64,000 nucleotides of DNA from Thiomonas sp. FB-Cd (GTDB lineage: Bacteria > Pseudomonadota > Gammaproteobacteria > Burkholderiales > Burkholderiaceae_C). The stretch is taken from NCBI RefSeq assembly GCF_000733775.1, contig NZ_JPOE01000002.1:620001-684000 (forward strand), given 5' to 3'. Positions within the stretch are counted from its first letter, which is position 1; each line of letters opens with the position of its first letter. Both the position numbers and the translations under genes were made by a program. Below are positions 46,963 through 62,329 of this stretch, piece after piece. Below the pieces are notes generated by a model. It was not told the DNA's origin. It made no database searches and saw only the letters and a list, made by a program, of their open reading frames with translations.

Positions 46963-46971
46963 GAGCAACGC

Positions 46972-47026
46972 ATGCTAGAAACGCCATACTTTCCGGAGCA
47001 TGACCGTCAGATGACGGTTTTGTCAT
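46972..47026 (-). promoter_or_regulatory. copper-region box A and -10, copA promoter
   Basis: ATGAC-CGTCAG-ATGAC-GGTTTT-GTCAT at 47000-47026, then 22 bp, then the minus-strand hexamer TAGCAT at 46977-46972. The arrangement is shared with five other sites in the window. It is the presumed copA promoter, and the two-component regulator encoded at 62392 is the likely ligand. Confidence 0.7.
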
Positions 47027-47057
47027 CTGCGGCCCCACGGATGTCATCCAGCTCGGA

Positions 47058-48641
47058 TCACCCCGCCGGAGGTCTCGCCACGATGGTCGCCGGCGGCAGG
47101 CACAAGCCCGAATCCTTGCAGGCTTGCACCCGCACGCGCACTTGCACCGCGCGCAAGTCGGTCAGCCCCGGCAGACCGATCCTCACCCCGTTCTCATAGA
47201 CCAGGATGGTCTGGCGTGCAATGCGCATACCGATGTCCTGGCCCGGCGGATAGCGAGGAGTGATCGACAGCGCGTGTCCCGCGCGAAAGGCCGTCACGCT
47301 GGCCGGGATCAGGTACCGAGTGGAGGGCGGGTTGGAATACACGTGCCACCCTCGCGCGATGTCCAGCGTCACCACGGCCCCTGCCGGCGTCGAGGCCATG
47401 CGGGCGCCCACCTCATCCGCCGAGTCGCGCGGTGCGCCGGCGTCGGTGGACACGATCGAGGTGGGCAACTCGTGCAGGCGGCCGATCAACGCGCCAGCGG
47501 TGAACAGCCCCGAGAAATGCCCGACCTCCCGGCCCCTGCTGTCGAGTACGGCAAGAAACGGCAGCCCCGCTCCGCCGTAGCGTGTGAGCAGTGTCTGCAA
47601 TGCCGGGTCGGGGCGGGTCAGGTCGGCCTGAAGCGCGATCGCACCGGACTCACGCACGGCCTTCAACACCTCGGGGTCGCGGTAGACCGTGCGTTCCATG
47701 ACCCTGCAGTTCAGGCACCATGCCGCGGTGAACTCGACCAGCGCCGGCCTGTGCAGCCCGGAGATCTGCGCCACGGCGTCGGCGTGAAGCGGCTGCCACG
47801 GCATACCCTGCCCCACCACGGGCCAGACTCCGGAGCCGAAGTAGGCAAGCACCAATGCCGGCAAGGCCGCGAGCACTGCCGCCCAGCGACTGCGTTGGTC
47901 GCGGGCACGCATCGCGACGAACACGACCCACAACGCCAGCGCAGCGAGCCAGACCAGCCACAGCGCGTTGCCGAGCCAGCCTGGCAGCAGGCTTTGCGCG
48001 AAGAACAGCGCGGCCGCGAACAGCAGCCAGCCGAAACTTCGCCGAACCACCTCGGTCCACGCTCCGGCCCGCGGCAGGCGCTGCAACCAGGAAGGACGAA
48101 GCAGCAAGAGCACGTATGGCAAGGCCATGCCCAGGCCGATGGCGACAAACAGGGTGACGATGTCGAGCGTGGGTCGGGTCAGCGCAAAAACCAGCACGCC
48201 CCCCAATAGCGGACCGGTGCATGGCGTCGATAGGATGCCCCCAGCCATGCCCGAAGCGAAGGGCTCGAAATACCGTGCGCCACCCAGCTGTGCAAGGGCG
48301 CCGGGGATCGGAAGCGAGCGCCTGCTGAAGCTGGCCGCTGCGAGCAGCACAAGTATCAGGATCAGCCCCGTGAGCACCCAACGCGACTGGAACAGCACGC
48401 CCCATTGCAGGTGCGCGAGCGCCGTGAGCAGTCCGAGAGCCGCGAAGAACGAAACCGAACCCAGGGTGAACAAGGTCGCCGACAACGCCCGCGAGCCAGC
48501 CGTTTCGCCCGCCTCGCGCAAGATGGTGCGTACCTTGATGGGGACCGCCGGAAGCACGCATGGCGTAAGGTTGAGCAGCGCGCCGGCGAACATTGCAAGC
48601 CCGGCCTCGATCAAGAAGGAAGGATTCATCATCATGCTCAC
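47058..48641 (-). CDS. DsbD-type thiol:disulfide interchange protein, permuted domain order
   Basis: A 527-residue inner-membrane electron carrier. The TM domain comes first (LTPCVLPAVPIK and STPCTGPLLGG, with the redox Cys), then a thioredoxin domain (FTAAWCLNCRVMERTVY), then a DsbD-alpha-like domain with VQACKDSGLCLPPA at the C-terminus. In E. coli DsbD the alpha domain is N-terminal. GTG at 48641 overlaps the TlpA stop (GTGA). It probably supplies electrons to periplasmic copper-handling proteins. Confidence 0.85.
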   Translation of the reverse strand: MSMMMNPSFLIEAGLAMFAGALLNLTPCVLPAVPIKVRTILREAGETAGSRALSATLFTLGSVSFFAALGLLTALAHLQWGVLFQSRWVLTGLILILVLLAAASFSRRSLPIPGALAQLGGARYFEPFASGMAGGILSTPCTGPLLGGVLVFALTRPTLDIVTLFVAIGLGMALPYVLLLLRPSWLQRLPRAGAWTEVVRRSFGWLLFAAALFFAQSLLPGWLGNALWLVWLAALALWVVFVAMRARDQRSRWAAVLAALPALVLAYFGSGVWPVVGQGMPWQPLHADAVAQISGLHRPALVEFTAAWCLNCRVMERTVYRDPEVLKAVRESGAIALQADLTRPDPALQTLLTRYGGAGLPFLAVLDSRGREVGHFSGLFTAGALIGRLHELPTSIVSTDAGAPRDSADEVGARMASTPAGAVVTLDIARGWHVYSNPPSTRYLIPASVTAFRAGHALSITPRYPPGQDIGMRIARQTILVYENGVRIGLPGLTDLRAVQVRVRVQACKDSGLCLPPATIVARPPAG

Positions 48642-49147
48642 GCCGGGCGCGCCAATTCATCGCGGATCAGGGCATCCAGCGTCGCGAAATCCGGACGCCC
48701 GAGAATTCGCTTGACCACATGGCCCTGCTTGTCCACCAGGAAGGTCGTGGGGGTCATGCGTACGTCGTAGAACGCCCTAGCGACCTGACCGCTTCCGTCC
48801 AATGCGACCTGGAACGGTAGATGCCGCGTGCGGCTGTAATCTGCCACGTAGTTGGCAGGGTCGTAGCTCATCGCCACGGCGATGAAATCAAAGTCCTTGC
48901 CACGAAAGCGCTCGTAGGTCTGGATCATCTGCGGCATCTCCGCGATGCACGTGGCACAGCTCGTGGCCCAGAAGTCCACCAAGTAGACCTTGCCACGCAG
49001 TTGCCCCGTACTCAGCGTACGCCCGGAGAGCAGGGAAAATGTCGCGCGCGGTGCACGAGGGCTGTCGGTCAGGAAAAAGTAAGACGCGGCTGCAGCCATG
49101 GCCACCACCATGACGCCAGCAGCCGCCCAACGCATCGGCATACGCAT
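48638..49147 (-). CDS. TlpA-family protein with CATC motif
   Basis: A 169-residue thioredoxin-fold protein anchored by an N-terminal helix (VMVVAMAAAASYFF). The redox motif is FWATSCATCIAEMP, unusual in having Cys-Ala-Thr-Cys, and MTPTTFLVDKQG is the cis-Pro loop. GGAGG lies upstream of the ATG at 49147. It probably exchanges electrons with the DsbD encoded in the next, overlapping gene. Confidence 0.85.
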   Translation of the reverse strand: MRMPMRWAAAGVMVVAMAAAASYFFLTDSPRAPRATFSLLSGRTLSTGQLRGKVYLVDFWATSCATCIAEMPQMIQTYERFRGKDFDFIAVAMSYDPANYVADYSRTRHLPFQVALDGSGQVARAFYDVRMTPTTFLVDKQGHVVKRILGRPDFATLDALIRDELARPA

Positions 49148-49257
49148 AGGACCACCTCCATCGGTTGTCGTCCGGGAGCCCGCGGGCGCGGAGTCCCTGG
49201 TCATCGGCGATTGGCGATGGGCACAAGGCTCCATCGCCGTGTTCGGGGAACGCCGAT

Positions 49258-49641
49258 TCAGGCCCTGGGAGGACGATAGAGAGTGTCGATGCGCCCCGCC
49301 ACCAGCCAACGTACAACGCTTGGGCGCAAGCTACCATCCCCCTTCGGCACGACCAGTCGCATCGGGACGGGCGCGGCGCCCAACGTGAGGGTGCCGGATG
49401 CGTGGCACGCGTGCTGCACCACGTCATCCCCCGCAATCCCCGATCTGTGGATGCCGATGCGGGCGCCGGCCTTGAACAGCACCGGACGCTCAGCGCGCGG
49501 CGCGAACGTCGCCGCGCTTGGCGCGGCGCCGGCCCGCGGGCAAGCATGTCCTGGTAGGGCAGCCGCTGCGAACGCGCCGCCGCCACCCGTCGACACAGCG
49601 ACGAGCATCAGGGCCAGCAGGAGGTCACGCAGCAGCTTCAT
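49258..49641 (-). CDS. small exported protein, hypothetical
   Basis: A 127-residue protein with a signal peptide (LLLALMLVAVSTGGGGAFA), two or three Cys and a C-terminal RIDTLYRPPRA. No domain is recognised. It shares its end (YRPPRA) with the exported protein at 36939-37382. It starts the minus-strand run TlpA-DsbD, so a role in copper or thiol handling is possible. Confidence 0.55.
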   Translation of the reverse strand: MKLLRDLLLALMLVAVSTGGGGAFAAAALPGHACPRAGAAPSAATFAPRAERPVLFKAGARIGIHRSGIAGDDVVQHACHASGTLTLGAAPVPMRLVVPKGDGSLRPSVVRWLVAGRIDTLYRPPRA

Positions 49642-49701
49642 GGGATCAAGGCACACTCGACTGGAATTCTATCCAAGACCGGTGTGGCAGCGAAGGCTTC
49701 G

Positions 49702-50544
49702 TTACACCCTGGGTTCGTCGTGCACAGAGTGCGGCCCCTTGGAACCGGAACCGCCGGCTTTCCGGCCTGTGAGTTCGATACGCCATTGCTGCAGTTCATC
49801 GCGCATGGCTGCCACGTCGCAGTGCAAGGCGTGCCGGGCGAGCGATTCCGCCTGGCCCACGAATAGCGCCGCAATTCCGCCCGTGATCAGCGAGAACACG
49901 GCGTAGCCGACCACCACGTCGAGCGCGGCCAGGACCTTGGCAGCTGCCCTGGTCGGCACGATGTCGCCTTAGCCGACGGTGGCCGCCGTCGTGAAGGCCA
50001 GCCATACGGCTTGTCTATAACTGTGCACGGTAGGTTCGATGCGGCAGAACCCCACTGCTGCCAGCGGCACGGCACCGAGACCCAGCAACGTGGCAAAGGG
50101 GATGACGTTCCGGGAGAACGCGGCGCGCACATGCCTGAGCAGCCAGGCGAACACAAGGGCGACGTAGATCAGCTGCAGCAGGTGCGCAACCGGCGTCGCA
50201 TGAACCCTTGCGCCCCACAGCACCAGGCCCGACGATGCGACGATGAGGAGCTTGAGCCAGTTTGCCAGCAGGTAGCGTGCCGGCTTGCGACACAGTGCCA
50301 GCATGAATGCCGTCTCGAGCACGAAGGCGGCGAGAATGAAGCCATCGATGCGGAGCCCCCACAGCGCAGGTGCGGCGCTGCGTTGAAGGTCCTCCAGGTA
50401 GAACGAGATCACGGCCAGCAACGCGATGCCTGCCATCCACGGAGCCGTTGCGCGTCCCAGTGCCCGCACCGCCATGCGCTCTCCGGTGGGCACCTCGTTG
50501 AATCCGATCCACGAGCGCCGGGCTTTCACGATATCTCTGGGCAT
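49702..50544 (-). pseudogene. voltage-gated-type potassium channel gene with a stop in the selectivity filter
   Basis: A channel-like protein with six predicted TM segments. The pore helix reads AVWLAFTTAATVG, then TAA at 49971-49969, then GDIVPTRAAAKVL in the same frame. The expected filter is TVGYGD, so the stop replaces tyrosine (TAC/TAT). The downstream part (to 49702) has the last TM helix and a cytoplasmic tail. A point mutation, a sequencing error or readthrough are possible. Confidence 0.8.
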
Positions 50545-50545
50545 G

Positions 50546-50848
50546 CTATGCCGCCTCACTGTTCGCGCCATTGCGGTGGGTTCGCCTCGCGGGCGCGGGG
50601 GCCTTGCCGACAGCAGCTCCGGCCTTCGTTACGGTCGGACCGAACCAGGCCACGAAACTTCGGTCCGGAAGGGCATGGTCGAGGGTGTCGGCGGCAGACG
50701 GCACGCGCGCGGCGGGAGCCGCATGCGCAGGGACCGCAGGTACCGCGGGTGCCGTGCGCGCAGGGATCGCGGGTACCGTGGCAGCCATATGGGGCCGGCT
50801 AGCGGGCGCCGCACGGCGAGGTATCTTCGGGCGCGTGGTGTCTGGCAT
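50546..50848 (-). CDS. Ala/Pro-rich hypothetical protein
   Basis: A possible 100-residue protein rich in Ala, Pro and Val with short repeats (VPAIPART, VPAVPAHA). It lies between the DUF5676-type membrane gene and the channel gene on the same strand. No Shine-Dalgarno sequence is evident and the repeats could make the frame fortuitous. Its last part (PDRSFVAWFGPTV) looks more protein-like. Confidence 0.35.
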   Translation of the reverse strand: MPDTTRPKIPRRAAPASRPHMAATVPAIPARTAPAVPAVPAHAAPAARVPSAADTLDHALPDRSFVAWFGPTVTKAGAAVGKAPAPARRTHRNGANSEAA

Positions 50849-50867
50849 GACGAGGGGGCAGCCGGCT

Positions 50868-51296
50868 TCAGCCAGCCACAACGGACGAGAAGTAGTTGTA
50901 CAGGGGTCCGAAGATCAGAGCGACGTACCAGCCGTAAGCCAGGCTCTCGAGCACCCCGAGCAGGAAGCTGCTCCAACTGAGCCAGGTAAAGCCCGGCAGC
51001 AGCGGCATCCAGACCCTGGCCATGGCTTGGGCGGGAAACAACAGGTCGAAGCCTACGCAGGCCACAAAGGTCAGCACCAGGAACAGCCCGAGGCTCATGC
51101 CCAGCCCAATCACGGGCAGGCGTGCAGGCCGTGCAGCATCGCCCCGGGCGCTCGGGCCCGTTGCGCCGAGGGACGCCGCGGGCATGTCGAGCGCCGGATC
51201 CTTGCGACTTCGGCCCATCACATGGCCTCCGCAGCCGAAGCGCATGAGCAGCACGAAGATCCCTGCCACCAGCAGGAAATACAACCAGGATTCCAT
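50868..51296 (-). CDS. membrane protein, DUF2933-like plus DUF5676-like
   Basis: A 142-residue protein. The N-terminal helix and FGCGGH resemble small DUF2933-type metal-region proteins; the C-terminal half (SLGLFLVLTFVACVGFDLLFP, then WLSWSSFLLGVLESLAYGWY in parts) resembles DUF5676. Three TM helices are seen. It follows the MFS gene by 16 bp. The two modules are normally separate proteins, so this is probably a fusion. The function is unknown. Confidence 0.65.
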   Translation of the reverse strand: MESWLYFLLVAGIFVLLMRFGCGGHVMGRSRKDPALDMPAASLGATGPSARGDAARPARLPVIGLGMSLGLFLVLTFVACVGFDLLFPAQAMARVWMPLLPGFTWLSWSSFLLGVLESLAYGWYVALIFGPLYNYFSSVVAG

Positions 51297-51312
51297 GATG
51301 GCCTCACTCCTT

Positions 51313-52506
51313 TCACGAGACCTCGGCGCGCGCGGGCGTGCAAGGTCTCCAGTACAGCCATGCGCCCGCGGATCCGCACAGCAGCAAAAGCGCGGCCAGC
51401 ACGAAGGGAGCTTCCGGACGCAACGAAAACAGGCCACCTGAGACGAAGGCCCCGAGCGCCTGCCCAAGGTTGCCCGCAGCGGCCAGGCGTCCGAGCTTGG
51501 CGCCCTTCGCGCCGGCGTCATGGTCCAGCAGGGCGTAGGCCAGCGACGGCGCGACCAACCCAATGCTGAGCGCCACGGCCGCGACCGTCATGCCCAGCGA
51601 CAGCATGTCTGGCGAGCGCGGCGCCGACAGCATGAACCCAGCGCCGAGTGCCAACACCGCGGCCATCCACCGACGCTCGAAGCGCTCGCGCAGCGGGCGC
51701 CAGGCAAGCAGCCCCTGGGCCACCAGCATGAAGCCGCTGCACACGACGAACAACAAGGCGATCGCTCCGACGGCTGCCCCCAGGCGTAACGCCCCCAGCA
51801 GGTTGAAGGCAGTCTCAAAACTGCCGACCGCGTAGGCGGCCAGGCCTGCCAGGATCATGCTCACCCCTGCGAAGCGCCGGTCGCGGATCGCCGGCATGGC
51901 ACCGGCATCGTCGATGGCCTGCGGAGCCGGCGCGTGCAGGCTCCATGCCAGCATGGGCAGGAGCATGACCCCTAGCGCGGCCACGACCGCGAGAGGCAGC
52001 TTCACCATCCAGGGCATGGCCTGCGTGCTCATGCGCATCACCGGCCCGGCCAGCCAGGTTCCGAGCAGCGGGCCGGTGACGAAACCGATGAAGCTGGCGC
52101 TGGCCAGCAGCGCGAATCGGCGGTTGCGTGCGGGACGGTCACTGACGTCGGCCAGATAGGCCTGCGCCGCCGGGATCACCGCGGCGGCGCCGACGCCGGA
52201 CAAGATGCGAGCCGCGTAGGCCTGCGCCAGGCTCGCGGCCAGGGCGGAGCCGAACATGCCCACGAGATAGGCGGTAAATCCCGCCATCAGCACCAGACGC
52301 CGACCATGCCGGTCCGAAAGGCGTCCCCACCATGCAGCGCTGGCGAACAAGGCCAGCGTATAGGCCCCGCTCAGCAGTCCCACGTTGCTTGCAATCTCCG
52401 CGGTGCTTCCGGGCGCAACGTAGCTGTGCAGATAAAGGGGCAGTAGCGGCATCCATGCGCTGTATCCGAGCGCCTGCACAAATGCGGCAGCCAGCAGCAC
52501 GGCCAC
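51313..52506 (-). CDS. MFS transporter of the copper region
   Basis: A 397-residue major facilitator with 12 predicted helices and the loop GRLSDRHGRRLVLMAG after helix 2. The frame is open further upstream without an ATG, so the start is uncertain; GTG at 52506 is used. It is in the minus-strand run beginning at box F (53378). The cargo is unknown; copper, a metallophore or a drug are possible. Confidence 0.75.
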   Translation of the reverse strand: MAVLLAAAFVQALGYSAWMPLLPLYLHSYVAPGSTAEIASNVGLLSGAYTLALFASAAWWGRLSDRHGRRLVLMAGFTAYLVGMFGSALAASLAQAYAARILSGVGAAAVIPAAQAYLADVSDRPARNRRFALLASASFIGFVTGPLLGTWLAGPVMRMSTQAMPWMVKLPLAVVAALGVMLLPMLAWSLHAPAPQAIDDAGAMPAIRDRRFAGVSMILAGLAAYAVGSFETAFNLLGALRLGAAVGAIALLFVVCSGFMLVAQGLLAWRPLRERFERRWMAAVLALGAGFMLSAPRSPDMLSLGMTVAAVALSIGLVAPSLAYALLDHDAGAKGAKLGRLAAAGNLGQALGAFVSGGLFSLRPEAPFVLAALLLLCGSAGAWLYWRPCTPARAEVS

Positions 52507-52596
52507 GGCCCTGCGCGGCGTGCCGTGGCCCGTGGCTTGCCGGGGGCGCCCTCGGAAGCGGCGCCGGCACGGATCGTAGGGTTTGTCATCGCGGGC

Positions 52597-52815
52597 CTAC
52601 TTGCAGCAGCCGTGCCCAGCATGTTCGGCGTGCCTGCATCCGCCCGAGTGCGGGGCCGCAGGCTGCGCCGCCTGCGCGTAGCGTGCAGGATCCTGGCGGA
52701 ATTTGACGCGGCATGCGGCCGAGCACAGGTAGTAGGTCTGGCCGCCGTGGTTCTCGGCGGCGAAGGCCGCGGCGGAATCGATGTCCATGCCGCAAATCGG
52801 ATCCTTGGTTTTCAT
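52597..52815 (-). CDS. YHS-domain protein with Cys/His tail
   Basis: A 72-residue protein with a YHS (TRASH-like) metal-binding domain: KDPICGMDIDSAAAF and YYLCSAACRVKF. A His/Cys-rich tail (GGCRHAEHAGHGCCK) follows. YHS domains bind copper or other soft metals. The gene precedes the MFS gene and follows another YHS-containing gene. Confidence 0.8.
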   Translation of the reverse strand: MKTKDPICGMDIDSAAAFAAENHGGQTYYLCSAACRVKFRQDPARYAQAAQPAAPHSGGCRHAEHAGHGCCK

Positions 52816-52916
52816 GTTGTACTCCTTGGTGAGTTCATGGATTGCGCCTGCTGGCCGGCGCCCGCCGTGACCCGCCCGGGCGTGCCCGCCGCCTGGCGCA
52901 GCTCCCTTCTGATGCC

Positions 52917-53273
52917 TTAGCAACCGCCGTGGCGGTGAGACTGGGGCTTCTGGGCCTGCGTCAGCGCGAACTGTCCGGGAGCGGCCTCGAAGCGGTCGCG
53001 GTTCTCGCGCGATTCAAAGTACACGGGCAGGCCGCGATACACCGTGCTGATTGCGGTGGAAGGGTCCACCCGGCGCCCGCTCACCGGGTCGATAGCCTGC
53101 GCCGGCATCGGTGCCTGGCCATGATCGTGCGACGAAGCGCCGTCAGCGCTCCCGCCCTGCCCTCTGCGCATGCCACCGCCCATGCCGCAGCCCATGCCGC
53201 CACTGCGCATCATGAAGAAGATCACCCCCGCGCCAAGCAGCACAAAGAGCCAGTTCTGTTCAAGCCATTGCAT
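52917..53273 (-). CDS. membrane-anchored YHS-like protein
   Basis: A 118-residue fusion. One TM helix (WLFVLLGAGVIFFMM) is followed by a Met/Gly/Cys-rich linker (GGMGCGMGGGMRRG), then a YHS-like module (IDPVSGRRVDPSTAISTVYRG and VYFESRENRDRF in parts), ending in QSHRHGGC. It is the first gene after box F. It probably binds copper at the membrane. Confidence 0.7.
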   Translation of the reverse strand: MQWLEQNWLFVLLGAGVIFFMMRSGGMGCGMGGGMRRGQGGSADGASSHDHGQAPMPAQAIDPVSGRRVDPSTAISTVYRGLPVYFESRENRDRFEAAPGQFALTQAQKPQSHRHGGC

Positions 53274-53349
53274 TTCGACCTCCATCCGGTTCTAGCGTTC
53301 TGGACGCACCCGGAGGGCATCCAACGCGTGTCTGACGTTCTTGCGATCC

Positions 53350-53404
53350 ACTCTAGGCCGCGGCTGCGCACACGACGATGACGCGCGAGTTACGTTGCGG
53401 TCAT
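53350..53404 (-). promoter_or_regulatory. copper-region box F and -10
   Basis: ATGAC-GCGCGA-GTTAC-GTTGCG-GTCAT at 53378-53404, then 22 bp, then minus-strand TAGAGT (53355-53350). It faces the YHS/MFS gene run starting at 53273, about 75 bp from the -10 to the ATG. Confidence 0.65.
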
Positions 53405-53463
53405 CTCCGTCCTCAGCCGCGCTTGGGCGCACGCGGACTCGACGCCGCCCCGCGCGCCCGGCC

Positions 53464-54595
53464 TCAGTCCACCGTGAACTGCCCCATCATTCCGTTGCCC
53501 TCGTGCTCCAGAATGTGGCAGTGGCACATAAAGGGGTGCGCCTCGTCGGCCCGCGGCGTAAAGCGCATGGCCAGGCGCACGCGCTGGTTGATCAGGTTCA
53601 TTTGCATGAATTGATCGTTGATCGAGAACAGATCCTGTCCGCCAATACCGGGGCTCATGCCGCCCGGGCCCGAGTCGACCAGGGCGCCGCGGTCCGCGTT
53701 GCCCAACGCATCATCGAACCCATGCGCATGGCCTACAGCGCGAAGCGCCTCACTCTGGCTGCTGCGAGAGGAACAGGATCTATTTCGACCAGTTTGGCGG
53801 GAACACCGGACCTCGCGCAGTTCGGCGCGCCCACGCGCAGTTGCAGCAAGTCAATGGTGCGCCGCTCCCAGGCGTCGGCGTCCATGGGCGATCCGTTGAG
53901 GATGTCGATCACTTTGGCGGAACGGCTTTGCAGCACGAGTTGCCTTCCTTGATCGCCGGATAAATCGACGACGATCTCGGCCCGCTCTCCCGGCGCGAGC
54001 ACCGGGCGGCGGATCGTCGCGGGACGGACCAGCAGTCCTACATCCGACGCGATGACCTGGAAGGCTCGCCCGTCGTCGAAGGCGAAGTTGTAGATGCGGG
54101 CGTTCGAGCCGTTGCGCAGGTTCAGGCGAACGTGTTGCGCCGGCGCCGCGGCATAGCGCTGCCCACGCCCGTTGACCAGGAAGCGATCGCCTTTCATTCC
54201 CCTCAGGTCGTGCATGCGGGTCATGTAAAGCAGCGTGCCGTCGGTCGCGATGCGGAGGTCCTGAACGATCACCCGGATGTCGTCGATTCCCCAGGTGCGC
54301 GTTTCGGGGTGGGGATGAATCTACGGCGTCGCGCCGGGTTGATCGAGCCTGAAGTGAATCCGCCTCGTTCGCCCCGTTGGGATGTTCGATCCGCCTCGGT
54401 CCTTGCGGACGCGCGGCGCGCGTGAACAGGGATGAAGCGGCTGGCGTGGCCGATGCCAGCAGCAGCGTGCGGTGCCGTGCATCGAGAATGTCTGCCCGCG
54501 GGGCCTGAATACTCGCGCTCCTCGCGCGGCGCACCGATTTCCAGAATTCCATGAGACCAGACCTTTGCGTGCAGGACTGGGATCGTGTCGGTCAT
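53464..54595 (-). pseudogene. multicopper oxidase remnant
   Basis: Pieces of a bilirubin oxidase/CotA-like multicopper oxidase lie in different frames. Frames at 54272-53733 give NGRGQRYAAAPAQHVRLNLRNGSNARI (in parts) and VLAPGERAEIVVDLSG; the piece 53706-53464 ends with AHPFMCHCHILEHEGNGMMGQF, a copper-ligand block. An N-terminal piece lies at 54595-54269. The middle and most copper sites are missing. Its promoter (box E) looks intact. Confidence 0.75.
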
Positions 54596-54630
54596 GATGC
54601 GCGCCGTGCGCAGATCCGACCCGCGAAACC

Positions 54631-54685
54631 AGCCTACCTATCCGGTGCTGTCGGCTCGATGACGGCTGCGTGAGATTGCTGTCAT
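54631..54685 (-). promoter_or_regulatory. copper-region box E and -10
   Basis: ATGAC-GGCTGC-GTGAG-ATTGCT-GTCAT at 54659-54685, then 22 bp, then minus-strand TAGGCT (54636-54631). It faces the multicopper oxidase remnant whose first frame begins at 54595. Confidence 0.65.
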
Positions 54686-54784: not shown

Positions 54785-55180
54785 TCAGCGGCGCAGCGAC
54801 GCGGCCACACGCTGCAACCTGGAACGAACCTCCCGTCCCAGGCTTTCGATCTCCGGCCGGGCGACCATGCCCAGCACGGGCTGCGGGTCCATGAACACGA
54901 CATGAACCCTGCCATCGGCATCCTCGCGCACGACCACGTTGCAGGGAAGCAGGGCACCGATGTCCGGGTCGGCCTGCAAAGCCTGGTGCGCGAACTGGGG
55001 GTTGCAGGCCCCCAGAATCGTGTACGGGCGCTGCTCGACGCCCAGCTTGGCCTTGAGCGTGGCCTGCACGTCGATCGTCGTCAGCACGCCGAAGCCCTCC
55101 TGCTTGAGCGCCTCGGTGACGGCCTGCACGGTGGCCTCGAAGCCCTTCGGGCTCTGCACACTGAAAACATACGAACTCAT
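54785..55180 (-). CDS. DUF302 domain protein (copper region copy)
   Basis: A 131-residue DUF302 protein. YVFSVQSPKGFEATVQAV, LKQEGFGVLTTID, LGACNPQFAHQAL and LLPCNVVV match the paralogue at 2516-2911 along nearly the whole length. Both Cys motifs are kept. It lies 62 bp after the copper ATPase gene in the same direction, so it may be cotranscribed. The function is unknown. Confidence 0.85.
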   Translation of the reverse strand: MSSYVFSVQSPKGFEATVQAVTEALKQEGFGVLTTIDVQATLKAKLGVEQRPYTILGACNPQFAHQALQADPDIGALLPCNVVVREDADGRVHVVFMDPQPVLGMVARPEIESLGREVRSRLQRVAASLRR

Positions 55181-55242
55181 GACTCTCTCCTCGTATGAGT
55201 TGGGATGGGCGCATTCATCTTGCCGTTTCGCGACTCGCGCCT

Positions 55243-57621
55243 CTACACCTTCGCGCGCCGCAGGCGCAGCGCGTTGGCCACCACCGAGACTGAACTAAAG
55301 GACATCGCGGCGGCGGCGATCACCGGCGACAGCAGCACGCCGAAGAAGGGGTACAGGATGCCGGCTGCCACCGGAACGCCCAGGCTGTTGTAGACAAAGG
55401 CGAAGAACAGGTTCTGGCGGATATTGCCCAGCGTGGCGCGGCTCAGGTGGCGCGCGCGCACGATGCCCCGCAGATCGCCCTGGATCAGAGTCACGCCCGC
55501 GCTTTCCATGGCGACGTCGGTGCCGGTGCCCATCGCGATGCCCACCTGCGCCTGGGCCAGCGCCGGCGCGTCGTTGATGCCGTCGCCGGCCATCGCCACG
55601 AAACGCCCCTCGGCCTGCAGGCGCTTGACGTGCTGTGCCTTCTGGTCGGGAAGCACGCCGGCGATCACGTCGTCGATGCCCAGGTCACGGGCCACGGCCT
55701 TGGCCGTGGTCTCGTTGTCTCCGGTGAGCATGACGATGCGCAAGCCGTCCTCGTGCAATTCGCGGATCGCCTGCGGCGTGGTGGTCTTGACCGGGTCGGC
55801 CACCGCCACCAGACCGGCCGGCTGGCCGTCCACGGCCAGGAACATGGCCGTGCGCCCCTGCGTGCGCTGTACCTCGGCCGGCGCGGCCAGCGCCGAGATG
55901 CCGATGCCGTGCCCCGACAGCAGCGCGGCGTTGCCCAGCAACACCTCACGCCCGCCGATGCGCCCGCTGACGCCCTTGCCCGCCGCGGCCTGGAAGTCCG
56001 TCGGAGCCTCCAACGCGAGCTCGCGCTGCTGCGCGCCCTGCACGATCGCCGCCGCCAGCGGGTGCTCGCTGCCCCGCTCAAGGCTGGCCGCCAGGCGCAG
56101 CACCTCGTCGGCGTCCCAGCCCTGGATCGGCACCACCTCCTGCAGGCGCGGCTTGCCTTCGGTGAGGGTTCCGGTCTTGTCCACCACCAGAGTGTCGACC
56201 TTGCGCAGGGTCTCGATGGCCTCGGCGTTCTTGAACAGCACGCCCATCGTGGCACCTTTGCCCGTGGCCACCATGATGGACATCGGAGTGGCCAGGCCCA
56301 GTGCACAGGGGCAGGCGATGATCAACACAGCCACGGCGTTGATCACGGCATAGGCCATGGAAGGCGCCGGGCCTAGCCACGCCCACAGCGCGAACGTGAG
56401 CAGCGCCACCGCGACCACGATGGGCACGAACCAGGCGGCCGCGATGTCGGCCAGGCGCTGGATGGGGGCGCGGCTGCGCGAGGCCTCCGAAACCATGTGG
56501 ACGATCTGCGCCAGCAGCGTGTCCGCGCCCACGCGCCGGGCCTCGATGACCAGCGAGCCGCTGCCGTTGACGGTCGCGCCCACCACTTTGTCACCGGCCG
56601 TTTTTTCGGCCGGAATGGGCTCGCCGGTGATCATCGACTCGTCCACCGACGAAGCGCCTTCCAGCACCACGCCGTCCACCGGGATCTTCTCGCCCGGGCG
56701 CACGCGCAGGCGATCGCCCACCTGCACCTGCTCCAGCGGAACGTCCGACTCCGAGCCGTCGGCCACGATGCGCCGAGCCATCTTCGGCGCCATGCCCAGC
56801 AGCGCGCGGATCGCCGCGTTGGTGTTGCTGCGCGCGCGCAGTTCCAGAACCTGACCCAGCAGCACCAGGGTCACGATCACCGCGGCCGCCTCGAAATACA
56901 CGTCCACCGCACCGGTGGCCGGATCGCGGAACGCCGGGGGAAAGATCTGCGGCGCCAGCTGCGCCACCATGCTGTACAGGTAGGCCACGCCGACACCGAG
57001 GGCGATCAGCGTGAACATGTTCAGGTTGCGCGTGCGCAGCGAATCCCAGCCCTTAACGAAAAACGGCCAGCCGCCCCACAGCACCACCGGAGACGCCAGC
57101 GCGAACTCGGCCCACGAGAATCCCACCTGATGGGGCCCGAGCACGCCCGCCAGACCGGGAACGTCATGGCCCATCGCAAGCGCCAGCACGGGAATGGCGA
57201 GCATGAGACTGGCCCAGAAACGCCGGGTCATCGAATCGAGCTCCGGGTTGCGCTCCGGCTCCGTGGCCACGCTGCGCGGCTCCAGCGCCATGCCGCACTT
57301 CGGACAGGAACCCGGAGCATCGCGCACGATCTCCGGGTGCATCGGGCACACCCACTGCGTGCGCGACGCCGGTGCCGCCGGCATCACGGGCTCCAGCGCC
57401 ATGCCGCACTTAGGGCACGCGCCCGGAGAATCGCTGACGACTTCCGGGTGCATCGGGCAGGTGTAGCGCGTGGCGGGCATAGTGCCCGCATGCGCAGCCT
57501 GCATCGAGCCAACATCTTCATGCTGGTGTCCGTGTCCGTGCACATGTTGTTGGCCATGATCGTGTTCGTGCGAGCGCACCGGCGCTTGCATTGTCGGCTG
57601 CTCGTGCCTTCGGTCGTCCAT
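55243..57621 (-). CDS. copper-translocating P-type ATPase
   Basis: A 792-residue P1B-type ATPase that exports copper from the cytoplasm. The N-terminus is His-rich and has two heavy-metal-binding CPMHPE...CPKCGMAL modules (about 54-80 and 91-117) instead of a standard HMA domain. [11 protein letters not shown] is the TM copper site, DKTGTLTEG the phosphorylation site, and [10 protein letters not shown] the hinge. Its promoter is box B (57757). Confidence 0.93.
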
Positions 57622-57728
57622 CGTGCTCCCTCCTGATCGTTATCACGTCGCCCGGCGCCCATCCAAGTGCCGCGAGCACCGCGCTCGCAGGCTCGCGCGA
57701 AGCCTCGACTCCTTCGCTGGTCGTTTAC

Positions 57729-57783
57729 AGTTTAGGCATTCATTTGCGTCGAGCACATGACCGCCCAATGACGATCCTGTCAT
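57729..57783 (-). promoter_or_regulatory. copper-region box B and -10, ATPase promoter
   Basis: ATGAC-CGCCCA-ATGAC-GATCCT-GTCAT at 57757-57783, then 22 bp, then minus-strand TAAACT (57734-57729). It faces the copper ATPase gene (57621). The site also lies 138 bp before the divergent DsbA gene at 57921, which could use it in the opposite direction. Confidence 0.7.
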
Positions 57784-57920
57784 GATTGAGGGCGCGCCGG
57801 CTCAGGGTTGGCCTGACATCGATTCCGGCTGCTCCAAGTCAAGGACCCTCCGGTCGACCACAGCTACGGTTTGCTGCGGCGGGCCGATGCCGAACGCCTC
57901 ACCGAATCGAGAACACAATC

Positions 57921-58589
57921 ATGAATGAACATCCGATACAACGCCTCCTCGCCCTGCTTGCAATGCTTCTCGCGATCGCCGCGGGCTCCACGATTACGCA
58001 AGCCGCCGCACCCTTCCAGAAGGGCACGGGCTACAACGAGTTGTCCGCCCGGCAGCCGGTGGGGCACCCAGGCAAGGTCGTGGTCACGGAGTTCTTCTGG
58101 TACAACTGCCCGCACTGCAATGCACTCGAGCCCGAACTCGACGCGTGGGTGCGCACGCAGCCGTCCTACGTGGTGGTCGAACGCGTTCCGGTGGCCTTCA
58201 CGGCGCAGTTCATCCCGCAGCAAAAGCTCTACTACACGCTGCTGGCACTGGGCAAGGTCGACAGCCTGCAGGGCGCCGTTTTCCAGGCCATCCATGAACA
58301 GCACATCGCGCTGAACACTCCGGACCAGATGGCCACATGGCTGGCCGCGCACGGCATTGCCAGGCAAACTTTTCTTGCGACCTTCAACTCCTTCGGCGTA
58401 GCCATGCAGGCCCGACGCGCCACGCAGATGATGAAGGACTATGGCATCGACGGCGTTCCGACCATGGCGGTAGAAGGCACCTACGAGGTCTCGGGCGATC
58501 TTCCGCAGACCCCGACCGACGAACGCATCCTGAAAGCCGTCGATTACCTCGTGGGCCAGGTCCACGCGCAGCAGGCCAGCGCGAGGTAA
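57921..58589 (+). CDS. DsbA-type thiol:disulfide oxidoreductase
   Basis: A 222-residue periplasmic protein. A signal peptide (LLALLAMLLAIAAGSTITQA) is followed by a DsbA fold with FFWYNCPHCNALEP (CPHC, as in E. coli DsbA) and GVPTMAVEG as the cis-Pro loop. The ATG at 57921 is set by the signal peptide. It is divergent from the copper ATPase gene, and probably re-oxidises or repairs periplasmic thiols damaged by copper. Confidence 0.88.
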   Translation: MNEHPIQRLLALLAMLLAIAAGSTITQAAAPFQKGTGYNELSARQPVGHPGKVVVTEFFWYNCPHCNALEPELDAWVRTQPSYVVVERVPVAFTAQFIPQQKLYYTLLALGKVDSLQGAVFQAIHEQHIALNTPDQMATWLAAHGIARQTFLATFNSFGVAMQARRATQMMKDYGIDGVPTMAVEGTYEVSGDLPQTPTDERILKAVDYLVGQVHAQQASAR

Positions 58590-58637
58590 CCTCGGCCGTC
58601 GGGCCGCCGGGGCCTCGGCGAGGGGACCGCGCGGCTG

Positions 58638-59093
58638 CTACGCTGCTTCCGTGCGCGCCGTGATCCATGTGCCTGAAAGGCCCGTAACCGTAACACGCTG
58701 CCCCGGTTCGAGGCAGGGATGCTGCATCATCGCGTGGGTATGAACCACCACGATGCGCATGCCGTTGTCAAGGTCGATCCCGTTGTGGCAATGGCTCAGG
58801 CCACGAGCGTCGGGCGCGCAGTTCGTGTCGCTGGTCACGGTCCCGCGCAGCGTCGCTCCGCGCGGCAGCGCGATGCCGCCGATGATCTGCAGCAGGGACA
58901 GGCCCCCTTGGCCATTGTCGGCCCAGCTTCCTATCGGTGCACCGGCAGGAATGCGAGGCTCACCGGGCACCGCGAACTGCGTGGCGTGAGCATGGGACAC
59001 CCAGAACAGCGCTCCCCCCACCGTGCCGGCGAGTGCCAACGTAGCGGCGACACGCCGAACCGAGGCGAGGGAAAGGCTTCGTGAGGCTTGCAT
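58638..59093 (-). CDS. exported hypothetical protein
   Basis: A 151-residue protein with a signal peptide (VAATLALAGTVGGALFWVSHAHA). The mature part contains LSHCHNGIDL and VVVHTHAMMQHPC, where His, Cys and Met residues could bind metal. No family is recognised. It is the only gene behind box C (59184). A copper role is inferred only from its position. Confidence 0.65.
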   Translation of the reverse strand: MQASRSLSLASVRRVAATLALAGTVGGALFWVSHAHATQFAVPGEPRIPAGAPIGSWADNGQGGLSLLQIIGGIALPRGATLRGTVTSDTNCAPDARGLSHCHNGIDLDNGMRIVVVHTHAMMQHPCLEPGQRVTVTGLSGTWITARTEAA

Positions 59094-59155
59094 GGTCGTC
59101 GATCTCCGTGCGAATCAGGGATGGGGACAGGCGCGTTGCGCCTGCGTTGCCAACC

Positions 59156-59210
59156 ATGATCGCGCTCCGTTCCCGACACGCCGATGACTGTGCGATGACA
59201 ATTCCGTCAG
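59156..59210 (-). promoter_or_regulatory. copper-region box C and -10
   Basis: ATGAC-TGTGCG-ATGAC-AATTCC-GTCAG at 59184-59210 (last base differs from the other five), then 22 bp, then minus-strand GATCAT (59161-59156). It faces the gene at 59093, 63 bp from the -10 to the ATG. Confidence 0.65.
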
Positions 59211-59259
59211 GTTCGCGCGGCACCTGCCGTACCGGGCCCGCGCAACCCGCGTGTAGGCG

Positions 59260-59964
59260 TCACCGGATGATGAACCGGCCGACCATGCCCTTCTCGGCGT
59301 GCTCCGGTGTCGGACATACATACCAGTACGTTCCCGGCTCGCCAGCGACGAAGCTGGTGGAAAGCGCCGCGTAGCTTGCAGCCCGCAGACGGCTGTCGCT
59401 GCGCCACGGCAGCAAAGGCTCGAGCTGCACCAGCCCCGGTCCGGTCGCCATCATGGCCATGTAGGGATAGGGCGGCGGAACCGCAGTGATGATCAACCCG
59501 TGCTCCATGTTGCGGCCGTAGTCCATGTTGACCAGGTCGATGCGCACGGTGGCACCGCGAGGAACCACCAGCGTCGGGTTGGTCAATCCGGCCACCTCGA
59601 AGGTCTGGTCCGGGTGGCCGGGCTGCACCGCGACCATCGCGATGCGCACGTCACGGCCGCTGAAGGTCACCGTATGGGTGCGGGCATCCACCCGGGCGCC
59701 CTGCGTGCTGCCTGCCAGAAAGTCACGCACCTGCGCGTAATCCAGCACCGCTCCGCCCCAGCCGGGCTCGACGGGACGGTCGGACTGGGCGAAGCCCATC
59801 ATGCCGCCGCCCATCATGCCTCCCCCCATCATGCCGCCGTAACCTCCGTAGGCTCCGTCGCCTCCACCGGGCATTTGCGCCTGGGCGCTGGGGCCCCAGG
59901 CCGCGACCAGCAGGGCCGCCATCACGACGGTGCTACGCGTGCGGCGCCTGATCGTCAGTTTCAT
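59260..59964 (-). CDS. sulfocyanin/rusticyanin-like cupredoxin
   Basis: A 234-residue exported cupredoxin. After a signal peptide comes a Gly/Met-rich segment (GGMMGGGMMGGGMMG), then a cupredoxin domain with NMDYGRNMEHGLII (His ligand) and GTYWYVCPTPEHAEKGMVG (Cys, His, Met ligands). The length and the ligand block fit sulfocyanin-type blue-copper proteins. It is the third gene of a minus-strand run from 61077. Confidence 0.8.
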   Translation of the reverse strand: MKLTIRRRTRSTVVMAALLVAAWGPSAQAQMPGGGDGAYGGYGGMMGGGMMGGGMMGFAQSDRPVEPGWGGAVLDYAQVRDFLAGSTQGARVDARTHTVTFSGRDVRIAMVAVQPGHPDQTFEVAGLTNPTLVVPRGATVRIDLVNMDYGRNMEHGLIITAVPPPYPYMAMMATGPGLVQLEPLLPWRSDSRLRAASYAALSTSFVAGEPGTYWYVCPTPEHAEKGMVGRFIIR

Positions 59965-60087
59965 CGCATGCTCCTGTTTGGCGAGTTCCGTCACGCGCCC
60001 CGAAGGACACCGGGGCTCGACAAGGTTCCGCCGGGCCGGCAGGCGGGGGACCTTGCCCCGTCAGGCGCCGCCCCGGCAGGACAAGGC

Positions 60088-60782
60088 TCAAGGCGCCTCG
60101 ACGAGGCTTTCACGCTGCTGCGGCGTCAGCACCGCGTCGACCTGACGGGCCGCCTCCAGGCGATTGCGCAGCATCTGCAGGCGCAAGCTCGACAGCGCGG
60201 TGGCCCGCTTCATGATCCCCTCGACATCGAGCTTGTTGCCGGCTGGCGCCCCCCAGGACTCGAACATGACCTTCTGCATGGACTGCATCAGCGGCCACTG
60301 CTTGTCGAACAAGGCCTTCTCGATGCCCGCGAACTTCATGCGCTGAGCGTCACTGAGCTGGGGATTCACGCCCCATCCTCCGTAGGCGCCGAAGCCTCCC
60401 ATCATGCCGGGGCCGAAGCCGCCGTAGCCAGCCATCATCCCCGGACCGAAACCGCCATAGCCTCCCATCATCCCCGGACCGAAGCCGCCATAGCCTCCCA
60501 TCATGCCGGGACCGTAGCCCCGTAGCCGCCACGTGCCCAGCCCGGCGCGTGCGCACCCACGGATCCACGCTGCCAGGCACCGCCCGCATAGCCCGGACCA
60601 TAGCCGCCCATCATGCCCGGGCCCATACCGTAGCCGTAGCCCGGGCCGTAGGCGTCGGACTGGGCCGTCGTCGCTGGAGCGCTGGCCGTGCCTGCCGCCA
60701 GGGCAGGAAGCGCAGCCGCGCCGAGGATCATCACGGGCGCGGCCACCAGGCCGAGCGCCAGACGCTTGTTCCACTTGATCAT
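60088..60782 (-). pseudogene. Gly/Met-repeat exported protein, frameshifted
   Basis: The frame from ATG 60782 has a signal peptide (LGLVAAPVMILGAAALPALA) and the start of GYGPGMM repeats, then goes out of frame in a CCCC run at 60518-60521. The other frame gives more repeats (GFGPGMMGGYGG) and then a Spy/CpxP-like helical domain (LSDAQRMKFAGIEKALF). One added G restores about 231 residues. It probably binds copper in the periplasm. Confidence 0.75.
60389..60516 (-). repeat. 36-bp tandem repeat coding GFGPGMMGGYGG
   Basis: About 3.5 copies of a 36-bp unit encode a 12-residue Gly/Met motif. The units differ by single bases (GCCGTAGCC versus GCCATAGCC). The repeat lies inside the frameshifted exported protein gene and next to the frameshift point, so slippage is likely. 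Confidence 0.75.
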
Positions 60783-60813
60783 GATTCGCTCCTTTGCGAA
60801 CAGAAAATCCGAT

Positions 60814-61077
60814 TCAATGCAGGTCCAGGTCGGCGCGCCGGCGTTTGTACTCATCGGCGTCGATCTCGCCCCGCGCATAACGCTCGTCCAGGATGGCCCG
60901 CGCGGAGGACCCGGGAGCCCTCGACGCGCCGTGATGTCCACGCATGCCGACGAACACGTCGCGCAGCAGTCCCACCACGAGCGCCACCACCACGATGACC
61001 AGCAGCAGCATGAAGACCCATCCGAAGCCGCCCATCATCCCGTAGCCCCATCCACCCGGTTGTCCGTACCACATCAT
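60814..61077 (-). CDS. membrane protein with SHOCT domain
   Basis: An 87-residue protein. A Gly/Met-rich start (GGWGYGMMGGFGW) is followed by one TM helix (VFMLLLVIVVVALVVGLL) and a C-terminal SHOCT motif (AILDERYARGEIDADEYKRR). SHOCT tails are common in oligomerising membrane proteins of unknown role. It is the first gene of the run whose promoter was split from box D by the IS630 element. Confidence 0.8.
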   Translation of the reverse strand: MMWYGQPGGWGYGMMGGFGWVFMLLLVIVVVALVVGLLRDVFVGMRGHHGASRAPGSSARAILDERYARGEIDADEYKRRRADLDLH

Positions 61078-61160
61078 GTCGTTCTCCTTTCGGTCGGTTC
61101 GCGTCTCACGGTCGCGGCAAGTCGCCTTGCGCGCAGCCACCGGATGCTTGATACCAACCT

Positions 61161-62280
61161 TATTGATTCGGCCCGCAAACAGATTCAAGCTGCATAGCGG
61201 ACGTAGGGATCCTGGAAGTAGGCTTTGACGCGCTCGGGTTCGCGGGTGATAACGGCCATGTGCTCCTCGGTGACGGCCTGCAGGCGTGCCTTGGTGCGCA
61301 CCGGCACCTTCTTGCGCATGACGTGCTTCAAGTCGGCGTTCAGCCGCTCCTCGGGGTTGAGCTCCGGGCTGTAGCTGGGCAGATAGAACACCTCGATTGC
61401 CTCGTTGTGCTGGGCCAGCCACTGCTTCACGGGTTTGCAGTGATGCACGCTGAGGTTGTCCAGAATGAGGAAGACCTTGCCGCGGGCATCCTTCACCAGC
61501 GCTTCAAAGAACTCGATCAGGCGCTCATGGTTGAACGCCCCGTCGATGATCATCCAGCGCGCCTTGCCCTGGTTGGTGACGCTGGCGATCATCGACAGCT
61601 TCTGGCGCGTGCCGCCCACGGCCATCGCCACAGGTGTCTTGCCCCTGGGCGCAAAGCTGCGGCCACGCGCATCGGTGTTGACCAGCGCCGTCTCGTCACC
61701 CCAATGGATTTCACCCTTCTCGGCCTTGGCGCGCTCGGCAAGGGCTGGGTACTCCGTCTCCAGCCAGGCCCGTACCGCAGCAGGGGACTGCTCATAGGCG
61801 CGGCGGATGGGCTTTTGCGGGGTGAACCCCCAGCGCGCCAGGTACTTGCCTACCGAGCGCACCTGCAAGGCCATGCCGCATTCACGTTCGATGAGTTGCA
61901 TCACGGCAGCCCGGCTCCACAGGGCAAAGTCCATTTTGAGTTGCTCAGGACGGTGATCACAGATCATGTGCTGGATGTGCGCTTCCTGTTCCGCACTGAG
62001 CACACGCTGCTCCCCCGTGCGGCGGCCTCGGCGCCGGGGAGCCAGCGCCGCCATGCCGCCGGCTTCATAGCGGTCAATCGTCTTGCTCACCGCCGTGTAG
62101 CTCAGTCCCACGTCGGCGGCAATCTGCGTGCGTGTGCGCCCACGTTTGTGCGCCCGTATGACCTGCCTGCGCCGCTCATGTTGCTCGGCTGGCGTCAGCC
62201 GTCTTGCATCGTCTTTGTCCATGCAAACTCCGACTCGCACTTGCCCCGAAAGTTCAATCTATTTATGGGCCTAATCTATA
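61161..62280 (-). mobile_element. IS630-family insertion sequence
   Basis: The element is about 1.12 kb, bounded by TA at 61161-61162 and 62279-62280. Its ends are imperfect inverted repeats (left TTGATTCGGCCCGCAAA, right TAGATTAGGCCCATAAA on the minus strand), 20-odd bp long. TA duplication is typical of IS630. The left repeat overlaps the transposase stop. The right end sits in the -10 of box D. Confidence 0.8.
61185..62222 (-). CDS. IS630-family transposase
   Basis: A 345-residue DDE transposase. An HTH (RTQIAADVGLSYTAVSKTIDR) comes first; catalytic residues lie in IHWGDETALVN, LILDNLSVHHCK and SPELNPEERLNADLK. It is intact, so the element may be active. ATG 62222 is chosen over an upstream start. 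A TATAGA -10 supplied by the IS end, behind box D, could transcribe it. Confidence 0.9.
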   Translation of the reverse strand: MDKDDARRLTPAEQHERRRQVIRAHKRGRTRTQIAADVGLSYTAVSKTIDRYEAGGMAALAPRRRGRRTGEQRVLSAEQEAHIQHMICDHRPEQLKMDFALWSRAAVMQLIERECGMALQVRSVGKYLARWGFTPQKPIRRAYEQSPAAVRAWLETEYPALAERAKAEKGEIHWGDETALVNTDARGRSFAPRGKTPVAMAVGGTRQKLSMIASVTNQGKARWMIIDGAFNHERLIEFFEALVKDARGKVFLILDNLSVHHCKPVKQWLAQHNEAIEVFYLPSYSPELNPEERLNADLKHVMRKKVPVRTKARLQAVTEEHMAVITREPERVKAYFQDPYVRYAA

Positions 62281-62329
62281 GTATCCGGCGCCTGTCCCTC
62301 GAATGACCCGTCGATTACATTGATGTCAT
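62275..62329 (-). promoter_or_regulatory. copper-region box D with IS-derived -10
   Basis: ATGAC-CCGTCG-ATTAC-ATTGAT-GTCAT at 62303-62329, then 22 bp, then minus-strand TATAGA (62280-62275), which belongs to the IS end. On the other side of the IS, TAAGGT (62280/61160 junction) would be the original -10. The box also lies 63 bp before copR (62392), and may work in both directions. Confidence 0.65.

Follow-up and report, generated by a model that had tools for sequence, protein, structure and literature searches.

The boxes described here are predicted operators of an OmpR-type response regulator of the CusR/CopR family, most likely the CopR encoded at 62392, arranged as a ladder of half-sites and switched by copper (probability about 0.92). 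Seven of them lie in the window, i.e. the whole stretch of 64,000 nucleotides that was analysed, and each is followed at 22 bp by a -10-like hexamer, as found by pattern matching and strand reading. The element is real and neatly built; it looks like the known CopR/CusR type and does not represent a new kind of switch. Features are listed below with mismatches to the consensus and weight matrix scores.

46972-47026, minus: copA promoter; box 47000-47026 (ATGAC-N6-GTCAT-N6-GTCAT), 22 bp, -10 TAGCAT at 46972-46977; 0 mismatches, matrix 40.9
45150-46973, minus: ORF of copA, multicopper oxidase (Cu-oxidase domains); the true start is probably further in
53350-53404, minus: promoter before the gene with a weak YHS match; box 53378-53404, -10 TAGAGT at 53350-53355; 1 mismatch, matrix 27.8
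52917-53285, minus: weak YHS match (21.6 bits against a cut-off of 30.3)
54631-54685, minus: promoter ahead of a multicopper oxidase remnant; box 54659-54685, -10 TAGGCT at 54631-54636; 2 mismatches, matrix 33.2
53464-53706: multicopper oxidase remnant (Cu-oxidase_2 tail)
57729-57783, minus: promoter of the heavy-metal P-type ATPase; box 57757-57783, -10 TAAACT at 57729-57734; 0 mismatches, matrix 38.6
55243-57621, minus: heavy-metal P-type ATPase (E1-E2_ATPase and HMBD)
59156-59210, minus: promoter ahead of a small protein; box 59184-59210 with CTGAC as distal half-site, -10 GATCAT (weak) at 59156-59161; 2 mismatches, matrix 30.1
58638-59093, minus: small protein without a Pfam match
61161-62280, minus: IS630-type element with terminal repeats; transposase 61185-62240 (Pfam DDE_3)
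62275-62329, minus: minus side of a divergent promoter; box 62303-62329, present hexamer TATAGA at 62275-62280; 1 mismatch, matrix 32.5
62314-62368, plus: copR promoter; box 62314-62340 (ATTAC-N6-GTCAT-N6-GTCAT), 22 bp, -10 TAGAGT at 62363-62368; 0 mismatches, matrix 33.6
62392-63078, plus: CopR, OmpR-family heavy-metal response regulator (Pfam Response_reg and Trans_reg_C), the probable binder

Anatomy and register of the boxes

A preliminary description of this DNA had reported six boxes, all of which were found at the coordinates given, although the window contains seven and the genome twelve. The pattern ATGAC-N7-TNA-N7-GTCAT is exact in five of the six, with one mismatch at 59184 (GTCAG) that had been pointed out. 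The 22-bp spacing and the six minus-strand hexamers are likewise as listed, except that GATCAT is a poor -10 and TATAGA derives partly from the IS630-type element. The central motif A/G-T-G/T-A-C/G is present but is itself a half-site (GTMAT read the other way), and the box therefore consists of three half-sites at 11-bp steps. Read in the direction of transcription, the consensus ATGAC-N6-GTCAT-N6-GTCAT is the CusR/CopR/AgrR inverted repeat with a third half-site 11 bp further on.

The inverted repeat ATKAC-N6-GTMAT, which defines operators of the CusR/CopR/AgrR type, is exact at 47000, 57757, 62303 and 62314, deviates at one position at 53378 (GTAAC) and 59184 (CTGAC), and at two at 54659 (CTCAC). 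The third half-site GTCAT is found at +11 in all seven promoters, and TANNNT follows at 22 bp in five, the exceptions being GATCAT and the IS-altered TATAGA. The promoters have the box in a class II position with a -10 and without a -35, the absence of the latter being judged by box position; the proposal that the box stands in place of a -35 is supported. Apart from the duplicated copA promoter, the spacers of the window promoters vary widely while half-sites and distance are kept.

Among 100 dinucleotide shuffles of the window a mean of 1.03 matches was obtained at up to 2 mismatches, and none reached the observed 7. A weight matrix trained on 36 promoters, all from other genomes, picked exactly these seven sites in the window at a score of at least 9 and no others there, the best score in 10 Markov shuffles being 7.4. 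Two of the training sites (L066 +6338, L077 +3827) resemble chance matches, and related Pseudomonas or Limnobacter contributed several; all were kept. Together with the reversed-pattern control given below, these results rule out a chance origin of the boxes.

The probable divergent copR operator

The match at 62314-62340 is very probably a seventh promoter, facing copR on the plus strand, 22 bp from TAGAGT; the statement that all boxes face the minus strand consequently does not hold. The palindrome 62314-62329 is common to this promoter and to the one on the minus side, giving a bidirectional operator of four half-sites. On the minus side the hexamer TATAGA consists of an original TA joined to the end of the IS630-type element, which has TA on both flanks (62279-62280 and 61161-61162). 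Judged by these junctions, the element split the -10 of the 62303 promoter by inserting at its TA. Related IS630-type copies occur elsewhere in the genome, two of them (L139, L141) with the same ends and flanking TA. The first ORF downstream of 62303 is the IS630-type transposase (DDE_3) and no copper gene. Nor are the promoters, though distinct, unlinked as had been stated, since all fall within about 15 kb.

The regulator

With a score of 346.2 against NCBIfam TIGR01387 (cztR_silR_copR; cut-off 279.2), 69% identity to E. coli CusR and 75% to CH34 CopR1, CopR of the window agrees with the suggested OmpR-type activator of the CopR kind. Because its score against the CusR equivalog NF007346 (364.5) is below the cut-off of 420, it is filed as CusR-like and not as CusR proper. 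A second CopR-type regulator of the genome, at locus L013, is 64% identical to CopR and also exceeds the TIGR01387 cut-off (325.3 against 279.2).

Sites elsewhere in the genome

The composite of box, 22 bp and TANNNT occurs in the genome at 12 sites with up to 2 mismatches and at 14 with up to 3, while the reversed pattern at up to 3 mismatches gave 1 forward and 0 reverse matches. The 12 comprise the seven of the window cluster and five elsewhere:

1427104: before a second copA
outside the window: before a copper ATPase
2741606: efflux/response-regulator locus L013 (OEP and ACR_tran domains), between the L013 regulator and the efflux genes; poor hexamer CAACAT
outside the window: before a DsbA-like gene that shares 60% identity over 187 residues with another DsbA-like gene of the window cluster
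outside the window: before SHOCT/Spy-like genes, with two related genes in the window cluster

The promoters of copA at 47000 and 1427104 are clear duplicates and agree in spacer and flanks as well. Of the two sites at 3 mismatches, one is the reverse side of the copA-paralog box and the other overlaps an ORF start. Many unrelated hits, the outcome named beforehand as a refutation, did not turn up: all 12 sites are copper, metal-efflux or cluster-related, and the idea of one regulon motif is supported. Exact ATKAC-N6-GTMAT palindromes number 15 (control 2); seven of them, next to copper, efflux or cluster-related genes in every case, form composite-site cores and are the ones kept when third half-site, 22 bp and -10 are required with one mismatch allowed. 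The other eight, all within mechanically listed ORFs (at least 130 codons), lack both a third half-site GTMAT and a TANNNT at 22 or 33 bp. As judged from its neighbours, the full pattern is nearly restricted to copper, metal-efflux and related loci of this genome.

Register in other genomes

Exact palindromes numbered 41 in 80 copR loci taken from named genomes and were read on both strands, giving 82 readings. TANNNT was found 33 bp from the core in 19 and 22 bp from it in 9; other offsets had a mean of 0.61 and a maximum of 4 (at 19 and 32). The GTMAT third half-site was located at +11 in 15 readings and at +22 in 2, and at no other distance from 5 to 25. Counts from the first 57 of the 80 loci speak against our interpretation: in 23 the 350 bp ahead of copR, or fewer where a contig ended early, contained no core at up to 1 mismatch, and in the 34 with a core TANNNT at 22 or 33 bp was absent on the divergent side in 16 and on the copR side in 26.

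In a motif-first search of 120 genomes of the same order, the exact directional box was found in 8, our own included, and the reversed control in none of the 120. TANNNT stands at 22 bp in 4 of the 7 foreign sites. Three of the 7 adjoin a response regulator, as seen by eye from ORF starts, and a fourth a P-type ATPase, by Pfam; of the remainder, one is within a large ORF and two are without clear context, one of these upstream of a TetR-type gene. Given these mixed contexts, an exact box taken by itself is only moderately reliable in a foreign genome.

Comparison with known systems

The motif had been called unrecognised, which is not the case: in the passages of the literature compared, the core is the same as the published CusR/CopR/AgrR box, an additional half-site in phase is described for AgrR (PMC7380067), and CH34 has a published 37-bp cop motif (PMC7563307). 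According to the text consulted of PMC7380067, operators of AgrR from Cupriavidus metallidurans NA4 combine the inverted repeat with an in-phase extra half-site in a class II position; their Pribnow box is reasonably good, their -35 absent or poor. The same passages place the core at -43.5 or ‘slightly more upstream’, give footprints and mutants in which a changed proximal direct repeat largely reduced activation, and report unphosphorylated AgrR to be active. In that description some operators carry the extra half-site, in imperfect form, whereas every one of the seven window promoters has GTCAT at 22 bp from its hexamer.

The CusR box of E. coli cusC, AAAATGACAAnnTTGTCATTTT as quoted in the part seen of PMC11195947, has the same palindrome as the window boxes, with a more symmetric spacer. 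In NC_000913 the layout is shared (ATGAC-AATTTT-GTCAT-TTTTCT-GTCAC-22 bp-TAAAGT), including a third half-site GTCAC, 22 bp from TAAAGT, and a weak fourth, ATCAG; the cusR side gave no three-half-site match at up to 3 mismatches.

On CH34 pMOL30, the proposed CopR1 site is a 37-bp motif located some 50 bp ahead of mapped cop starts (PMC7563307, in part). It is similar in length to the window's four-half-site ladder (38 bp) and, matched by published description and sequences, is probably a box of the same type. For copA1 the 22-bp rule predicts a start at 191245, 2 bp from the copper-only start at 191,243 given in the sections consulted of that paper. Counting against our interpretation, copA1 matches the box only at 3 mismatches, and the weight matrix gave 7 hits of at least 9 in 49 kb of pMOL30, about four preceding cop genes by position, while the same sections list mapped starts for 15 cop transcription units. 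The CH34 sites found have a degenerate distal half-site (CTGTC, TTTCT). The TGACA-N4-TGTCA sites bound by CopR in Pseudomonas putida and P. aeruginosa belong to the same half-site family with several half-sites inside footprints, and the part of PMC12428095 considered describes no fixed -10 register for them. In the portions seen of the open-access literature searched, the strict 22/33-bp register and the weak fourth half-site were not found stated.

Discussion

Box anatomy, register and regulator family are, at the level of sequence, as described; we infer that CopR binds the boxes, that copper is the signal, and how the polymerase is contacted. Regulator protomers would bind half-sites GTMAT at 11-bp spacing, the two distal ones acting as the classical inverted repeat ATGAC-N6-GTCAT and the third as an in-phase direct repeat, with a fourth (GWCAG) probably bound weakly. 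The partner kinase would sense copper, and copA, the P-type ATPase and adjacent genes would be switched on together with copR.

The sites might instead be operators of the regulator at L013, or common to both regulators, the regulon then being multi-metal. This is unlikely, although L013, with its TIGR01387 assignment and 64% identity to CopR, could recognise them too, is separated from the adjacent RND efflux genes by a box of this type (2741606), and cross-binding of CopR, CusR and CzcR is reported in the literature as far as consulted. Its efflux-side box, however, has the poor hexamer CAACAT, while the seven window boxes surround copR, which has its own perfect composite site. That the hexamers at 22 bp are not -10 elements, the boxes being real and another sigma factor or start being used, is considerably less probable. 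GATCAT and TATAGA, two of the original six, are poor, and unusual -10/-35-like motifs are reported at P. putida cop promoters in the literature seen in part. Against this stand the 33- and 22-bp peaks among foreign readings (19 and 9 of 82, next highest offsets 4), the mapped CH34 copA1 start within 2 bp of prediction and the Pribnow boxes of AgrR promoters (PMC7563307 and PMC7380067, as consulted). Recent copying of a single promoter, without selection on the box, could explain the duplicated copA promoters at 47000 and 1427104, but as a general account it is very improbable: the other window promoters keep half-sites and distance despite widely different spacers, E. coli cusC and other named genera share the layout, and the cross-species register peak already largely refutes it.

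For the CopR reading, a single grammar of the CusR/CopR family can be proposed tentatively, at somewhat less than even odds as a whole. An 11-bp half-site ladder would lie in register with the -10, its proximal half-site always at 22 bp; in a shared operator the palindrome would stand 33 bp from the -10 towards the structural gene and 22 bp from that towards the regulator, with a conserved weak fourth half-site GWCAG in the spacer; and the number of ladder steps, not the palindrome alone, would set direction and strength of firing.

The 12 sites constitute a concrete candidate copper regulon for this genome. Third half-site, 22 bp and -10, with one mismatch allowed, would make a stricter search for CopR/CusR promoters than the palindrome alone, and the ladder may offer a simple reading of how one shared operator serves two promoters of different geometry.

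Boxes and promoters of the copper region

The six boxes (47000, 53378, 54659, 57757, 59184 and 62303, named by their starts; minus strand) were found where the preliminary description had placed them, five exact and one with a single-base difference; in 100 shuffles of the window the match count was never reached. The 22-bp spacing and the hexamers TAGCAT, TAGAGT, TAGGCT, TAAACT, GATCAT and TATAGA were likewise borne out on the minus strand. Read 5' to 3' along the minus strand, the first half-site is ATGAC (CTGAC in 59184), the middle one, N6 beyond it, is, in the same order, GTCAT, GTAAC, CTCAC, GTCAT, GTCAT and GTAAT, and the third is GTCAT, N6 beyond the middle one and 22 bp before the hexamer. 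The central element once taken for a separate signature does exist, as one half-site, the inner one, of an inverted repeat; one helical turn (11 bp) further on it recurs in direct orientation as the last GTCAT. The regulon motif is thus real, clean and was correctly seen, and the guess made about it was largely correct; it is not an unrecognised motif, since it belongs to an already known kind.

A further match, very probably a seventh promoter, overlaps box 62303:

62314-62340, plus strand, box ATTAC-N6-GTCAT-N6-GTCAT, exactly 22 bp, TAGAGT

As the plus-strand reading gives the full layout, 62303-62340 is a two-way operator with four half-sites. It lies, nearly symmetric, between copR (62392-63078, plus strand, OmpR-family response regulator) and the divergent genes. 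The predicted start of the plus-side promoter is near 62375, and the likely copR start codon follows 17 bp on, at 62392. With a weight matrix built from 36 promoters of other genomes (none from Thiomonas sp. FB-Cd), exactly seven sites in the 64-kb window scored at least 9, all of them the seven boxes (27.8 to 40.9); ten Markov shuffles gave at most 7.4.

The minus-side promoter 62303 runs into an IS630-type element (61161-62280) with matching terminal repeats at its ends. The -10 begins with its left TA, at which the element was inserted into the minus-facing copper promoter. The hexamer TATAGA is therefore partly insertion sequence, which accounts for its deviation from TANNNT; the promoter may be lost to the genes past the element. 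The genome contains 33 matches to the element, those near full length being one 91% and four 77% identical. Two of these relatives (L139, L141) have the same ends and are TA-flanked; the other three gave no match to the search pattern for the element ends.

A degraded gene was also observed:

53464-54600, minus strand, multicopper-oxidase remnant

Only the end of Cu-oxidase_2 is present in a short ORF, the rest being apparently split across frames; a CopR-type promoter is retained at 54631-54685.

Genome-wide sites

The proposed whole-genome scan for box, 22 bp and hexamer (TANNNT) gave 14 composite sites in 4.39 Mb with up to 3 mismatches allowed, 12 of which have no more than 2; with up to 3 allowed, the reversed control gave 1 forward and 0 reverse. 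Five of the 12 lie outside the window, at copper/efflux or cluster-related genes.

Composite sites outside the window (each upstream of the named gene unless placed between genes)
Second copA (TIGR01480, 867.7 vs 478.95); promoter 1427076-1427130
Copper ATPase (TIGR01511, 599.5 vs 397)
Between a heavy-metal response regulator (TIGR01387, 325.3 vs 279.2) and efflux genes (Pfam OEP, ACR_tran)
DsbA-like gene (Pfam DSBA, 49.1 vs 25.6)
SHOCT gene, then Spy/CpxP-like gene

The second copA promoter is near-identical to the 47000 promoter, spacer included, so the two sites are not independent; the gene with its copied promoter is a duplicated copper module. The DsbA-like and SHOCT sites are linked to the copper cluster through related genes rather than through a metal domain of their own: the DsbA-like protein shares 60% identity over 187 residues with the window ORF 57786-58589, and the SHOCT and Spy/CpxP-like genes are kin to window-cluster ORFs (SHOCT portion, 25/27 residues; 54% over 85 residues). 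The fourth half-site position opens with G in 12/12 composite sites.

Exact two-half-site palindromes (ATKAC-N6-GTMAT) numbered 15 in the genome and 2 in the control. Seven form the core of a composite site; one of these has GTCAC as its third half-site and one has CAACAT as its hexamer. The remaining eight sit inside ORFs of 130 codons or more from a mechanical listing, with no GTMAT at +11 and no TANNNT at 22 or 33 bp.

Register in foreign copR loci

Eighty foreign loci were picked by CopR similarity alone, the motif not being used. They held 41 exact palindromes in 32 loci, giving 82 strand-readings, in which TANNNT lay 33 bp from the palindrome in 19 cases and 22 bp from it in 9. The mean over 54 offsets (8-65, without 21, 22, 32 and 33) was 0.61, and the next highest count was 4 (offsets 19 and 32). 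A third half-site was seen at +11 in 15 readings, at +22 in 2 and at no other distance from 5 to 25.

From 362 readings, 36 promoters (28 loci, related Pseudomonas among them, perhaps two chance matches) were selected by palindrome (at most 1 mismatch) and TANNNT at 33 bp only. The third half-site, unused in selection, was kept (G 0.83, T 0.75, C 0.72, A 0.89, T 0.50), and a weaker fourth followed 11 bp past it (G 0.89, C 0.58, A 0.67, G 0.67; second base T 0.47, otherwise mostly A). In loci L034-L104, a conserved G with a weak GWCAG was observed in the 22-bp spacer, 11 bp past the third half-site.

Shared operators were counted in the first 57 of the 80 loci, over 350 bp upstream of copR or to the contig end. 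Thirty-four of these had a core with no more than 1 mismatch, and 23 had none in this interval. The divergent side followed the 33-bp rule in 18/34 and neither rule in 16/34; the copR side had its -10 at 22 bp in 7/34, at 33 bp in 1/34 and at neither in 26/34. Where the register was readable, the copR side mostly carried the palindrome alone, at 22 bp, and the operators were mostly asymmetric, the palindrome lying one helical turn nearer the copR -10. The window operator follows the 33-bp rule on both sides (its minus-side hexamer altered by the insertion), an uncommon arrangement among these loci.

Comparison with measured promoters

The cusC promoter of E. coli K-12 has the same layout (ATGAC-AATTTT-GTCAT-TTTTCT-GTCAC, 22 bp, TAAAGT); the published CusR box, as quoted in PMC11195947, is the palindrome alone. 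On pMOL30 of C. metallidurans CH34, copA1 is preceded by CTGTC-N6-GTAAT-N6-GTAAG, 22 bp and TACTCT, with 3 mismatches to the box. Its start is predicted at 191245, the published copper-only start being 191,243 if the paper's numbering is that of NC_007971.2; that paper (PMC7563307) reports validation of the copA start by 5' RACE. Of 7 matrix matches scoring at least 9 in 49 kb of pMOL30, about four, by position, precede cop genes, so the matrix fails to pick up the greater part of the 15 cop units whose starts are mapped in PMC7563307.

AgrR of C. metallidurans protects 31-35 nt; the centre of its core lies at -43.5 in the promoter of its own gene and, elsewhere, 'slightly more upstream'. These centres would fit those that the 22- and 33-bp rules predict, about -42.5 and -53.5.

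Putative mechanism and functional context

CopR would bind the boxes, the proximal protomer standing in for the -35 contact, and the signal is presumably copper. Neither the strict register nor the weak fourth half-site was found stated in the parts of open-access papers covered by the search.

Thiol-redox genes (DsbD-, TlpA/ResA- and DsbA-like) lie in the copper cluster or directly 3' of a box:

47058-49309
57786-58589
4134-4778 of the fetched locus L011

Their placement suggests that copper stress is linked to periplasmic disulfide handling.
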